Positions 56,135-61,062 of a stretch of DNA of 64,000 bases are shown here, in pieces. Location: positions 372,001 through 436,000 of the forward strand of contig CALSRO010000003.1 of the NCBI GenBank assembly GCA_943788775.1, written 5' to 3'. Source of the DNA: an uncultured Flavobacteriales bacterium (GTDB lineage Bacteria > Bacteroidota > Bacteroidia > Flavobacteriales_G > Salibacteraceae). The position numbers were made by a program, and so were the translations under genes. The first letter of the stretch is position 1; the number at the start of each line of letters is the position of its first letter. The notes below the pieces were generated by a model. That model searched no databases and was not told where the DNA came from. It saw only the letters and a list, made by a program, of their open reading frames with translations.

Positions 56135-57127
56135 ATGAATAAACTCATTCTCGTTTTTCTGATTCTCATTAGCTCCATTGCGTGCGCACAAACACAAAGG
56201 GATTTGGTGACGTTGGATCCAAATACGGAGTTGATCGACCACCTTGGTTATTCATTTCAATACTCAGAACAGCACGAACAAGCCATGTGGATTGGCTATG
56301 TATTGACCAAAGAAGAAACGATAAAACAATACGAGCGTACCGATCGATTCATAGAAGATCCATTGGTAAAAACTGGATCGGCAAGCATTGCGGACTATAA
56401 AGGTTCTGGATTTGACCGAGGTCATTTGGCTCCAGCCGCAGACATGTCTTGGTCCGAAACGGCCATGAAGGAGTCCTTCTATTTCAGTAATATGAGTCCG
56501 CAAGACCCATCCTTCAATCGTGGTATTTGGAAAAAGCTGGAAGCACAGCTTCGATCTTGGGCCATTGTTTATGACTCTATTTACATTGTGACAGGCCCCA
56601 TACTCACGGATGGATTGGAAGCCATCGGACCCAATGAAGTTTCCATTCCGCAGCTTTATTATAAAGCGGTAATAGACCTACGAGAAGATCGAAAGGAAGG
56701 AATTGCCTTCTTATTGAAAAACGAAGCGAGCCAAGATGCTGTGCAGTCTTTTGCGATAAGTATTGATAGCTTGGAGCGTGTAAGTGGATTAGAGCTCTAT
56801 CCATTTCTAGATGATGCTCTTGAAGCAAAAATTGAATCAGAAATATGTATTTCCTGCTGGGACTGGAGCATACACACCGTAGAAGCCAGACCTGCTTCTA
56901 CCACGAAATCTAGCACCACACAGTGCTTGGGAAAAACAAAATCGGGTAATCGATGTAAAATCAAAACCAACGAAACGAGTGGCTATTGCCATGTACATAC
57001 TGCACAAATTCCATCGGAGCCCCCTCGCTTGGAGACTTCGGTGCGCTGCACGGGTACAACCAAAAGAGGCAAACAATGTAATCGTAAAACCTTGGATGCA
57101 AGTACTAGATGTTCGCAACACAAATAG
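56135..57127 (+). CDS. Secreted DNA/RNA non-specific endonuclease with tandem Cys3His motifs
   Basis: This 330-residue protein has a signal peptide (MNKLILVFLILISSIACAQ). The NUC1/NucA-type nuclease domain (about 25-240) has the catalytic motif DRGHLAPA (Asp94 to Ala101, general base His97) and NMSPQDPSFNRGIW, which supplies the metal-binding Asn. The C-terminus holds two small modules with identical spacing, Cys264-x9-Cys-x10-Cys-x2-His288 and Cys305-x9-Cys-x10-Cys-x2-His329. They read C.G.TK.G..C....... and then C..H, resembling DUF5763. They are probably zinc- or disulfide-stabilised and might aid substrate binding. It degrades extracellular or periplasmic nucleic acid by family inference. 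Confidence 0.85.
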   Translation: MNKLILVFLILISSIACAQTQRDLVTLDPNTELIDHLGYSFQYSEQHEQAMWIGYVLTKEETIKQYERTDRFIEDPLVKTGSASIADYKGSGFDRGHLAPAADMSWSETAMKESFYFSNMSPQDPSFNRGIWKKLEAQLRSWAIVYDSIYIVTGPILTDGLEAIGPNEVSIPQLYYKAVIDLREDRKEGIAFLLKNEASQDAVQSFAISIDSLERVSGLELYPFLDDALEAKIESEICISCWDWSIHTVEARPASTTKSSTTQCLGKTKSGNRCKIKTNETSGYCHVHTAQIPSEPPRLETSVRCTGTTKRGKQCNRKTLDASTRCSQHK

Positions 57128-57221: not shown

Positions 57222-57617
57222 ATGAAAAAAATTGAAGTGGTTGCTGCTGTGATATTCTATGAAGATCAGGTGCTTTGTGTTCAACGACCTAAAAACAAAC
57301 TACCCTATATTTCGGAGAAATATGAATTTCCTGGTGGAAAAGTGGAAAAAGGAGAAACAAAAGAAGAGGCTTTGCACCGCGAATTATTGGAAGAATTAAA
57401 TCTATCTACAAACATCAATTCCTCGTTTCTAACTGTTGTTCATCGATACCCTGATTTTGAACTTACGATGCACAGTTTTATGTGTGAAGTGGATTCAAAA
57501 GAACTCACACTTCGTGAACATATAGACCAAAAATGGCTAACAATCAACGAACTTACTGGGTTGGATTGGGCCGCAGCTGATGTTCCAATTGTAGACAAAT
57601 TGGTTTCTAATGGATGA
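57222..57617 (+). CDS. MutT-like Nudix hydrolase
   Basis: This 131-residue nucleoside-triphosphate pyrophosphohydrolase of the MutT group has a complete Nudix box (residues 39-61), G-x5-E-x7-REL-x-EE-x-N-L with Gly39, Glu45, Arg53, Glu54, Glu57 and Glu58. The last conserved Gly is replaced by Asn. The N-terminus IEVVAAVIFYEDQVLCVQRP is typical of 8-oxo-dGTP or CTP pyrophosphohydrolases. It overlaps the giant helicase gene by 8 bases, so the two are translationally coupled. That implies a shared role in nucleotide-linked defence or repair rather than general housecleaning (inference). Confidence 0.92.
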   Translation: MKKIEVVAAVIFYEDQVLCVQRPKNKLPYISEKYEFPGGKVEKGETKEEALHRELLEELNLSTNINSSFLTVVHRYPDFELTMHSFMCEVDSKELTLREHIDQKWLTINELTGLDWAAADVPIVDKLVSNG

Positions 57618-60600
57618 CCTAATCCAAAGTTTCAATAAGAGTTTACAGACTGGCTATGTAGATAAGTCCATTCTATCTAATTTGGACTATCAGCCTGAAC
57701 TACTCGTCAATCAGAAGAATCCACCTAAAAAGGTGCTTTCTACCATACTTCATGAGCTCGAACACTGCAATCAGTTTTATATCTCTGTTGCCTTTGTCAC
57801 AACCAGTGGAGTTGCTGCCATAATCAACAAACTAAAAGAGCTAGATGACAGGGAAATAAAAGGTAAAATACTAGTCTCTCAGTACTTAAATTTCACTCAG
57901 CCTGAGGCACTAAAAAGGCTTTTGCAGTTCAACAATATAGACCTAAGAATTGCAACCATTGGAAACGCTCATACCAAAGGTTACATCTTCGCAAGCAAAG
58001 AGCATTACAACCTAATTGTTGGGAGCAGTAACCTTACAGCTCAGGCTTTATCTACTAACAAAGAGTGGAATATTAAAGTCTCCGCATTAGACGAAAGTGG
58101 CATAGTTGAAAAAGTAATGCGAGAGTTTCATTCCGATTTTGAAAAAGGAACGCCCGTAACGACTGAATATATTAGGACTTATGAAGAAATTTATCATAGT
58201 CAATTCCTACTAAATCGAAAAAACAAACTTGAAAGCCTAGCCGAATCACAACCACTGATAAAGCCTAATTCAATGCAAATAGATGCATTGGAAAATCTTA
58301 ACAAATTAAGGATTCAGGGAAAAAACAAAGCCCTGATCATTTCAGCAACAGGAACTGGAAAAACCTTTTTATCAGCATTTGACGCTAAAGTGTTTATTCC
58401 TAAAAAATTACTTTTTGTAGTTCATCGATTGACTATTGCGAAAGGCTCACTCAATACATTCCGAAGTGTTTTTGGGAACGATAAAACCATGGGTTTGTAT
58501 TCTGGAAACCAACTTGATTTGGATTGTGACTTTGTGTTTTCTACTATTCAAACCATTTCTAAAGAAAACCACTTAAAGAACTTTGCTAAAGATCATTTTG
58601 ATTACATCATCATTGATGAAACACATCGGTCGGGTGCAGATTCATATTTGCGTTTGATTGATCATTTTGAACCGCGGTTTCTATTAGGAATGACTGCTAC
58701 ACCTGAGCGGACAGACGGCAACAATATATTTCAACACTTTGATCACAACATTGCTTACGAAATCAGATTAAGCAGAGCTATGGAAGAGGAAATGCTTAGC
58801 TCTTTCCATTACTATGGCGTTACTGATTTATCGATTGATAACACCGAAGTCGAAAGAAAATCAGATTTCAAATATTTAGTTTCGAGCGAACGCGTTGAAC
58901 GCATTATTGAACAAACTAAATTCTATGGCAGTGATAATGGAATAACGAGAGGTTTGATCTTCTGTTCTAGAAAGAATGAAGCAATTGAATTATCGGAATT
59001 GTTCAATTCAAAAGGATTCAAAACAATTGCCTTAACTGGAGATAGTAATGAACAAGAAAGAGAGCGAGCAATTGAAAAACTCGAGTCAGATAATCTGAGT
59101 GAAAAACTCGATTACATTTTCACGGTAGACATTTTCAACGAAGGGATTGATATTCCAAAAATCAATCAGATCATCATGCTTCGGCCTACAGATTCAGCAA
59201 TAATTTTTATTCAGCAATTAGGTCGAGGATTAAGAAAAGTAGATGGGAAAGGATATTTGACAGTGATTGATTTTATTGGAAACTATGAAAATAATTACCT
59301 CATCCCTATCGCCTTGTATGGCGATACATCCTACAACAAAGACTCTTTAAGGAAACTGATAACGGAAGGAAGCAGAATGATACCTGGTGCCTCAACCATC
59401 AATTTTGATGAAATCACCAAAGAAAGAATCTTTCAATCTATTGACTCTGCCAATATGCAATTGTTCGCTGACTTGAAAAAGGATTACAACCTATTGAAAT
59501 TCAAGTTGGGACGAACGCCAATGATGATGGACTTTATTGAGCATGGTTCGCGCGATCCGTTCTTATTTGTGGATTACGCAAATTCTTATTACAATTTTAT
59601 TTTAAAGGCTGAGAAAGCTGAAAACCTTGAGCTTTCAAAGCAGCAGGTAAAATTAATGGAGCTGTTTTCTAAAGAACTAAACAACTCAAAACGCCTTGAA
59701 GAAAGTTTGATCCTTAAAATACTGCTTGAAACAGGAGAACTTTCGGTAAATGAATTGAAAGAGCGAGTGCTTAAAAAATATGGATATTCCATTTCTGAAG
59801 AGACTATAAATTCCTGCGTTTTCAACTTAAATTTTGAGTTTATACGCGAAAAAAAGGACGGTAAAATGCTTTCAGCGAAAGAGATTTATGACTTTGACAT
59901 TATAAATCTTGAAAACGGAAAATTGCTCTTTTCCAACTCTTTTAAAGCGCATTTGAATCAAAATGAGTTCAAGCGCTTCCTAATTGATTCAACTGATTAT
60001 TCGATTTATGAATTCGACCGCTTATTTGACGCAGACAAATGGCAAAACGGATTCGTGCTTTATAGAAAGTATTCTCGAAAAGATGTGTTCAGAATATTGA
60101 ATGTGGCGGAAAATCCTGTTGCCCAAAACGTGGGTGGATATTTAGTAAGTCCAGACAATGAGCATTGCCCAATTTTCGTGAACTATCACAAAGAAGATCA
60201 TATTTCGGAGTCGACCAAGTATGAGGATGAATTTATAAACAACAAAGAATTTGATTGGATGTCAAAGTCCAACCGAACCATGAACAGCAATGATGTTCAA
60301 TCCATTCTAGGTAAAAATGGCGCTATTCGTCTCCCGCTGTTTATCAAAAAAAACAATGACGAAGGAATAGACTTTTACTTCATGGGCGAAGTAAGTCCTG
60401 ATTTGAACAAAGTGGAACAAACCACCATGCCAAACAACAGTGGCAGAAAACTTTCGGTGGTAAAAATCAGATTCAATTTAGCCGACCCTGTTATACCTAG
60501 CATGTACAACTATTTGCAAGAGAAGTCCGCAACAAAGGATATTAAAACAGTAAAAACAAGCAAAGTCATTCCGATCCAGCAAGAGTTGAGTTTTGAAGAA

Positions 60601-61062
60601 GAACTGAGAAACCCAATTCCATTGTATGACTTTTACGCAGCCGCAGGCACATTTAGCGAATTACAATCAGAGAAGGATTTCACGCTCATTGAAGGCCCAG
60701 AAAATAGCTCAAGCAACGATTATTTCGCTTGTAAAATTATTGGTGAGTCAATGAATAGAGTTATTCCGAATGGTTCTATATGCTTGTTTAAATCCTATAC
60801 AGGCGGTAGTAGAAATGGCAAAATTGTGTTGGTTGAAAACTTGGATATTCAAGATCCTGATTTCAACTCCGCATTTACCATAAAAACCTACTCCAGTGAA
60901 AAGTCTGTTTCAGAAGAAACATGGGGTCACACGTCCGTTGTATTAAGACCAAACTCATTCGACAGTTCGTATCAAAACATAATCATTACGGCAGAAAATG
61001 CTGCAGAAATGAGGATTGTTGGTGAGTTTATGAGAATTTTAAAAGAAGACAGAAAACAATAG
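57610..61062 (+). CDS. PLD-nuclease / SF2 helicase / DUF3427 / S24 self-cleaving protease fusion
   Basis: This is a 1150-residue four-part protein. First, a phospholipase-D-like nuclease domain (about 45-180) has the HTK...GSSN pattern (His121, Lys123, Gly138-Asn141). Second, a superfamily 2 helicase (about 215-550) has Walker A ATGTGKT (246-252), DETH (336-339), TATPERTDG (362-370) and QLGRGLRK (536-543). Third, a DUF3427-like region follows (about 555-990). Fourth, a LexA/UmuD-type S24 domain (about 1004-1150) has AAAG (Ala1012-Gly1013), GESM (Ser1047) and TIKTY (Lys1092). Ala1012 to Ser1047 is 35 residues, as in E. coli LexA. PLD-helicase-DUF3427 proteins are known near Nudix genes and in defence regions. 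The complete protease triad suggests self-cleavage. The frame is uninterrupted. Function is inferred, not shown. Confidence 0.88.
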   Translation: MDDLIQSFNKSLQTGYVDKSILSNLDYQPELLVNQKNPPKKVLSTILHELEHCNQFYISVAFVTTSGVAAIINKLKELDDREIKGKILVSQYLNFTQPEALKRLLQFNNIDLRIATIGNAHTKGYIFASKEHYNLIVGSSNLTAQALSTNKEWNIKVSALDESGIVEKVMREFHSDFEKGTPVTTEYIRTYEEIYHSQFLLNRKNKLESLAESQPLIKPNSMQIDALENLNKLRIQGKNKALIISATGTGKTFLSAFDAKVFIPKKLLFVVHRLTIAKGSLNTFRSVFGNDKTMGLYSGNQLDLDCDFVFSTIQTISKENHLKNFAKDHFDYIIIDETHRSGADSYLRLIDHFEPRFLLGMTATPERTDGNNIFQHFDHNIAYEIRLSRAMEEEMLSSFHYYGVTDLSIDNTEVERKSDFKYLVSSERVERIIEQTKFYGSDNGITRGLIFCSRKNEAIELSELFNSKGFKTIALTGDSNEQERERAIEKLESDNLSEKLDYIFTVDIFNEGIDIPKINQIIMLRPTDSAIIFIQQLGRGLRKVDGKGYLTVIDFIGNYENNYLIPIALYGDTSYNKDSLRKLITEGSRMIPGASTINFDEITKERIFQSIDSANMQLFADLKKDYNLLKFKLGRTPMMMDFIEHGSRDPFLFVDYANSYYNFILKAEKAENLELSKQQVKLMELFSKELNNSKRLEESLILKILLETGELSVNELKERVLKKYGYSISEETINSCVFNLNFEFIREKKDGKMLSAKEIYDFDIINLENGKLLFSNSFKAHLNQNEFKRFLIDSTDYSIYEFDRLFDADKWQNGFVLYRKYSRKDVFRILNVAENPVAQNVGGYLVSPDNEHCPIFVNYHKEDHISESTKYEDEFINNKEFDWMSKSNRTMNSNDVQSILGKNGAIRLPLFIKKNNDEGIDFYFMGEVSPDLNKVEQTTMPNNSGRKLSVVKIRFNLADPVIPSMYNYLQEKSATKDIKTVKTSKVIPIQQELSFEEELRNPIPLYDFYAAAGTFSELQSEKDFTLIEGPENSSSNDYFACKIIGESMNRVIPNGSICLFKSYTGGSRNGKIVLVENLDIQDPDFNSAFTIKTYSSEKSVSEETWGHTSVVLRPNSFDSSYQNIIITAENAAEMRIVGEFMRILKEDRKQ

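Follow-up and report, generated by a model that had tools for sequence, protein, structure and literature searches.

We analysed a 64,000-nucleotide stretch (the window) of contig CALSRO010000003.1 from an uncultured Flavobacteriales bacterium, in which two overlapping genes on the + strand encode a small Nudix hydrolase and a long restriction-type nuclease that ends in a LexA-like protease domain. Both open reading frames (ORFs) were re-found exactly where the initial annotation had placed them, with ATG starts and with the 8-nucleotide overlap it had reported (57610-57617), in which the stop of the first gene meets the start of the second and translational coupling is expected. The first gene (57222-57617; 131 aa) encodes a Nudix hydrolase (Pfam NUDIX, 65 bits; PADLOC PDC-S07) with the Nudix box GGKVEKGETKEEALHRELLEEL and is a predicted 5-methyl-/5-hydroxymethyl-dCTP pyrophosphatase. 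The second (57610-61062; 1150 aa) begins with a phospholipase D (PLD)-family nuclease domain (~residues 1-196, 57610-58197; PLDc_2, 38.7 bits), in which H121xK123, N141 and E152 are invariant, followed by a superfamily 2 (SF2) helicase-like ATPase (residues 217-557, 58258-59280; ResIII, 134 bits; Helicase_C, 57 bits) that carries GTGKT (K251), DETH (336-339) and QLGRGLR (536-542). A coupler/DUF3427 region with an SRA-type target-recognition domain (residues 686-969, 59665-60516; DUF3427, 266 bits) then leads, through a variable linker (~residues 970-1005, 60517-60624), to an S24 autoprotease domain of the LexA/UmuD/CI type (residues 1006-1148, 60625-61053) with Ser1047 and Lys1092. The linker was delimited from tail alignments and from an AlphaFold2 (AF2) model whose predicted local distance difference test score (pLDDT) is <50 at residues 973-998; the tail alignments also place the predicted self-cleavage site at F1008-Y-A-A-A1012/G1013 (60631-60648). 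All domains named in the initial annotation (PLD, SF2 helicase, DUF3427, S24 and Nudix) were recovered as Pfam matches, and the residues it singled out lie in the matching motifs: His121 in HxK with Lys123, Lys251 in GTGKT and Ser1047 in GESM. The search it had proposed for the PLDc-SF2-DUF3427-S24 architecture yielded 39 further proteins, and S24 was also found on three other nuclease types. Given that the DUF3427-linker-S24 layout recurs in those 39 proteins from other genomes, a chance ORF or fusion and an assembly chimera were rejected.

Residues 1-969 are almost certainly a SauUSI-like type IV restriction enzyme, that is, one dependent on 5-methylcytosine (5mC) or 5-hydroxymethylcytosine (5hmC). 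Residues 2-969 align with SauUSI (PDB 7clg; 754 bits, E 1.6e-225), the PADLOC mREase_IV match reaches 787 bits, and SauUSI is the best fold match of the AF2 model of the long protein (Foldseek E 4e-63). Across 49 aligned relatives H121, K123, K251, D336-E337 and R539/R542 are invariant. SauUSI, a type IV enzyme, works as a dimer: an SRA-type domain reads 5mC/5hmC, and ATP-driven translocation is followed by DNA shredding (PMC7913695, PMC3874153); it cleaves m5C and hm5C DNA but not N4-methylcytosine (m4C) DNA (PMC3874153). The two proteins share the order PLD-SF2-coupler-SRA/DUF3427 over residues 1-969 at about 38-40% identity, and they differ in that SauUSI stops where the S24 linker of the window protein starts. 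The nuclease part is thus no new family but a SauUSI-like type IV enzyme, and its DUF3427 region is the 5mC-reading SRA-type region of SauUSI, whose counterpart there has an SRA fold (PMC7913695). The defence role suggested earlier for the locus fits a SauUSI homologue well; the earlier list of parts was right, but it had missed both this homology and the SRA nature of DUF3427. We note that several SauUSI-like copies elsewhere (L039, L042, L050, L049, L052) carry stops or frameshifts or are truncated, which suggests frequent decay.

The Nudix-nuclease pair is a horizontally acquired insertion. Its two genes have a guanine-plus-cytosine content of 0.36-0.37, compared with 0.44-0.46 for clpB and the TonB-receptor gene on either side. 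In three congeners ~0.2 kb separates these flanking genes, and neither the pair nor the upstream endonuclease gene lies there. The nearest relative, in Roseivirga echinicomitans, is 87% identical and has the pair, while the window's neighbours are absent within 10 kb on each side. No C5-cytosine methyltransferase scored above the Pfam cut-off in the genome of the host (assembly ~95% complete), which makes this genome compatible with a 5mC-cutting enzyme. The S24-tailed nuclease does not appear to be phage-borne, since a scan of viral contigs gave no S24-tailed relative. Matches to SauUSI in INPHARED entries named 'Staphylococcus phage' are probably host DNA, as they sit in unverified wastewater assemblies.

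SauUSI-like genes almost always come with a Nudix partner gene. When loci were gathered with the nuclease alone as the query, a Nudix gene adjoined 74 of 77 SauUSI-like genes across phyla (loci cut by a contig end left out; L050, whose match covers the two genes together, scored manually). Its position is upstream in Bacteroidota and mostly downstream in Bacillota and Spirochaetota, and the overlap with the nuclease gene is exactly 8 nucleotides in 37/38 S24-bearing loci. A sample of 395 Bacteroidota genomes held nine complete SauUSI-like genes with DUF3427; each had a Nudix gene next door (<~3 kb from the DUF3427 domain), and these nine Nudix genes were the top-scoring Nudix matches of the set. 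SauUSI of S. aureus shares this feature: a Nudix gene, annotated as a (deoxy)nucleoside triphosphate pyrophosphohydrolase, lies directly upstream. The partner is not mentioned in the SauUSI structure paper (PMC7913695) or in a review of modification-dependent enzymes (PMC3874153), and a literature co-search for SauUSI and Nudix found none.

With regard to substrate, the Nudix proteins beside SauUSI-like genes form one clade (support 99/96) that includes PDB 3GWY (Q5LBB1) of B. fragilis, to which the window protein is 52% identical. Among 74 compounds assayed, 3GWY showed kcat/Km values of 4.8e6 for 5-Me-dCTP, 4.4e6 for 5-hydroxymethyl-dCTP and 6.7e6 M-1 s-1 for 5-Me-CTP; 5-OH-dCTP was a 50-fold poorer substrate, and canonical nucleoside triphosphates were far poorer (PMC5158307). 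5-Me-dCTP and 5-hydroxymethyl-dCTP correspond to the two bases that SauUSI targets. The window protein shares with 3GWY an Asp at the base-recognition position (DWAAAD, MutT-Asn119); 3GWY was characterised as an isolated enzyme. The prediction that the window Nudix hydrolyses 5-methyl-dCTP and 5-hydroxymethyl-dCTP is well supported, and the modified-nucleotide role proposed at the outset has gained specific candidate substrates. An ordinary MutT-like 8-oxo-dGTP cleaner that was merely co-transferred would explain the TIGR00586 score of 79.9 bits; however, this is below the curated cut-off of 97.9, the Asp replaces the MutT Asn in 71/72 readable partners, and the nuclease-Nudix linkage is far above chance, so that we regard such a role as extremely unlikely. 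The score against NudG/Orf135 (NF007834; 77.4 bits) is likewise below its curated cut-off of 156.

What sets the window protein apart from SauUSI is its S24 tail, which the initial annotation had rightly picked out as the most unusual part: the protein is an S24-tailed variant of the SauUSI kind. The Peptidase_S24 match lies above its cut-off (25.3 vs 23.3 bits, residues 1009-1138), and a conserved block follows the linker: FYAAA/GxFSE (A1012-G1013), GESM (Ser1047) and TIKTY (Lys1092). Ser and Lys never vary in 40 SauUSI-type tails, and Gly varies once (L005, AAAS). Searched alone against PDB profiles, the tail gave only weak non-S24 matches, and the predicted fold was needed: the top 28 PDB fold matches of its low-confidence AF2 model (Foldseek) are all LexA, lambda CI or UmuD, LexA-RecA filament complexes among them. 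As judged from these motifs, the autoprotease parts (site A1012-G1013, Ser1047, Lys1092) are intact and the module is complete. The likeness to LexA, UmuD and lambda CI covers the predicted fold, the A-G site and the Ser-Lys dyad; in contrast to these proteins, the 1150-aa protein has no helix-turn-helix (HTH) match in Pfam and its S24 domain is fused behind a restriction nuclease. Having no DNA-binding domain, the protein is not a repressor, and cleavage cannot work by derepression. Just one further S24 protein was found in the same genome, encoded by an HTH-S24 repressor-like gene. The tail with AAAS (L005:3671-4162) is the sole one of its kind at the predicted cleavage site and is possibly uncleavable.

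On a tree of the nuclease cores (70 proteins, 39 with S24), the presence of S24 requires 2 changes, compared with 23 for shuffled labels, and the simplest reading is one gain and one loss. S24-bearing members come from Bacteroidota and Balneolota, except for one in a metagenome-assembled genome labelled Rhizobium (L040), a label that is probably misassigned. Five genomes with S24-less SauUSI loci were searched for this kind of S24 module and gave none.

The same module also occurs C-terminally on three more kinds of ATP-dependent nuclease, making four architectures in all: GIY-YIG/Schlafen-group-3 helicase proteins (~725-800 aa), Schlafen-helicase proteins with a different N-terminal region (L040, L215, L216), and the HsdR subunit of type I loci with HsdM and HsdS (L103, L104). 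In our own reading, the N-terminal region of the second kind has a D..E.K-like pattern; it has no Pfam match. A tail profile detected the module in 20/395 Bacteroidota genomes, two of them weakly, and a broader profile in 33/395 genomes of the window's class and 4/200 genomes of the phylum of an Acinetobacter locus. A, G, Ser and Lys are invariant across the four architectures down to 31% identity (19-sequence alignment), and one tail in that alignment has A-C-G, like UmuD. It could be argued that the S24 domain serves dimerisation or another protein contact and that its protease activity is irrelevant, given that S24 C-terminal domains dimerise and that SauUSI acts as a dimer (PMC7913695). 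This appears very unlikely: the invariance of the A-G, Ser and Lys residues would be unneeded for a structural role, and SauUSI dimerises through its nuclease domain with S24 absent (PMC7913695). The type I restriction-modification loci with an S24-ended HsdR lie at L103:838-9570 and L104:9536-18219; in L103 an AAA ATPase and another small gene stand between HsdS and HsdR.

A second type of pyrophosphatase accompanies the module elsewhere. A MazG-like gene lies beside 26/26 GIY-YIG/Schlafen-S24 genes (counted with tblastn, L213 and L222 included), mostly with a 4-nucleotide overlap, and the closest PDB entry to its product is dCTP pyrophosphatase 1 (6sqw; 5e-17), an enzyme that favours dCTP and 5-methyl-dCTP (PMC4491611). 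The window partner differs in being a Nudix protein, and MazG represents a parallel solution in a sister architecture. Neither a Nudix nor a MazG-like pyrophosphatase was found at the two HsdR-S24 loci (L103, L104). Type I enzymes read unmethylated sites, and the absence would be expected if such a partner were important solely for nucleases that target a modified base. MazG+Schlafen-helicase and Nudix+SauUSI-like units stand side by side in L050:7902-14792, L032:6436-13450, L082:2399-7906 (Butyrivibrio) and L253:2583-7978; the side-by-side cases include an L. plantarum plasmid with Nudix, SauUSI-like, MazG and GIY-YIG/Schlafen helicase genes in a row. The two kinds of unit adjoin also without S24, and the paired units look like a combined multi-gene restriction cassette.

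These comparisons also bear on whether the Nudix protein could act on the phage directly, emptying its pool of 5-hydroxymethyl- and 5-methyl-dCTP so that the phage is caught between unmodified DNA and cutting, with self-protection secondary. The substrate evidence (PMC5158307) would serve this explanation as well as our own, and the family is a PADLOC phage-defence candidate (PDC-S07). However, a phage with less modified DNA would go unseen by the partner nuclease, and no pyrophosphatase is present at the HsdR-S24 loci, where modified bases are not read; we therefore consider starvation of modified-base phages, the rival on the Nudix side, to be unlikely.

Because type IV enzymes come without a self-marking methyltransferase, how their hosts avoid self-cutting is an open question. 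The cell studied here seems to have two separate means of keeping its own chromosome from being shredded, so that the locus offers two testable answers: cleaning of the nucleotide pool by the coupled Nudix and damage-triggered self-proteolysis. We propose, in a judgement that is evenly balanced, that the locus encodes a type IV system like SauUSI, gained by horizontal transfer, in which both safeguards are built in as layers of self-protection. By homology, the dimeric PLD-helicase-SRA enzyme would bind foreign 5mC/5hmC, translocate on ATP and shred the DNA. The co-translated Nudix would meanwhile hydrolyse 5-methyl-dCTP and 5-hydroxymethyl-dCTP, including nucleotides freed from destroyed phage DNA, and would keep modified cytosines out of the host chromosome, which would otherwise become a target. 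That the Nudix is a preventive safeguard of this kind is quite probable, considering the homology, the linkage and the published assay of a clade member.

The second safeguard would react to harm already done. If the host chromosome were cut or damaged, RecA filaments on single-stranded DNA would induce self-cleavage at A1012/G1013, S24 would be detached, and the nuclease would be left with the C-terminus ...YDFYAAA, like the LexA N-fragment and the ssrA tag (...SYALAA). Removal of this product by ClpXP would amount to restriction alleviation encoded in cis. Self-cleavage of the S24 module is reasonably probable from the conserved motifs, whereas the direction in which it acts, shut-off, is put forward tentatively and with confidence falling slightly short of balance; RecA as the trigger and the off-direction of control are both inferred. 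The RecA-linked cleavage proposed in the initial annotation is thus reasonable, but control could run in two directions, of which its nuclease kept inactive until cleaved is one, and we rate shut-off higher. We favour shut-off because the partner genes are best explained as self-protection, because S24 also occurs on HsdR, a known target of damage-linked ClpXP proteolysis, and, as a weak point, because the cleaved end resembles the transfer-messenger RNA (ssrA) tag of the same genome, GETSYALAA. HsdR is the classic target of damage-linked restriction alleviation by ClpXP (PMC11109961, PMC12707154). As with EcoKI, an ATP-dependent restriction enzyme would be controlled by proteolysis linked to damage, and HsdR can itself bear S24 (L103, L104), but the E. 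coli enzyme has no fused self-protease and does not require LexA autocleavage (PMC11109961, PMC12707154).

Several points weigh against this proposal. Alleviation of EcoKI in E. coli is independent of LexA autocleavage (PMC11109961). Cleavage at an S24 A-(A/C)-G site leaves an ..AA end in any case, which makes the degron resemblance weak evidence. The AF2 model of the S24 tail is of low confidence (pLDDT 60), many SauUSI-like enzymes, SauUSI itself included, have no S24, three loci (L052, L065, L072) have no adjacent Nudix gene, and the Nudix substrates are carried over from 3GWY at 52% identity. It is also the case that the S24 domain could hold the enzyme inactive. In this alternative, the main rival on S24, RecA-triggered cleavage after phage damage would free the core (1-1012) while the role of the Nudix is unchanged. 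The cleaved product would be a full SauUSI-length enzyme, S24-less relatives are complete enzymes, and the S24 domain is conserved as strongly as the core, which would fit an intramolecular contact. Activation seems rather unlikely to us, however, since S24 hangs on a low-confidence linker of variable length, since one module on four nuclease backbones makes a specific inhibitory surface less likely, and since recognition of modified DNA already supplies a trigger.

An S24-tailed SauUSI-like enzyme with a nucleotide hydrolase partner matched to its target appears to be new; we found no published description of the S24 tail or of the Nudix partner in a literature search that left out subscription papers and preprints. 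The partner pertains also to SauUSI, which is one of the main obstacles to gene transfer and transformation in S. aureus. If self-protection by shut-off is true, the S24 tails of HsdR and of the Schlafen-helicase nucleases would mean that controlling restriction by proteolysis is a portable design that recurs. More speculatively, and leaning against it ourselves, we raise the possibility of a general self-protection kit, in which a transferable S24 lets the RecA damage signal switch off four kinds of ATP-dependent restriction nuclease, and readers of modified cytosine are paired with a convergent Nudix or MazG hydrolase of modified dCTP, which prevents the target base from entering host DNA.

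Upstream of the pair lies a DNA/RNA non-specific endonuclease gene with a C-terminal DUF5763 match (56135-57127, + strand; Pfam), inserted at the same clpB/TonB-receptor junction. It is probably outside the system and was rejected as a third component, as it shows no link to the pair at other loci. A second family of DUF3427 helicases (~1047-1066 aa; e.g., G080:C2, G197:C67, G198:C1, G226:C1, G257:C33) has no S24 match and often has a related Nudix gene adjoining. HNH endonuclease-like (~350 aa) and/or HIT-family genes recur beside SauUSI-like genes in several genomes (L050:14827-15879, L048:2784-4180, L007:4522-4938, L252:700-2085 and L082:7913-9091).

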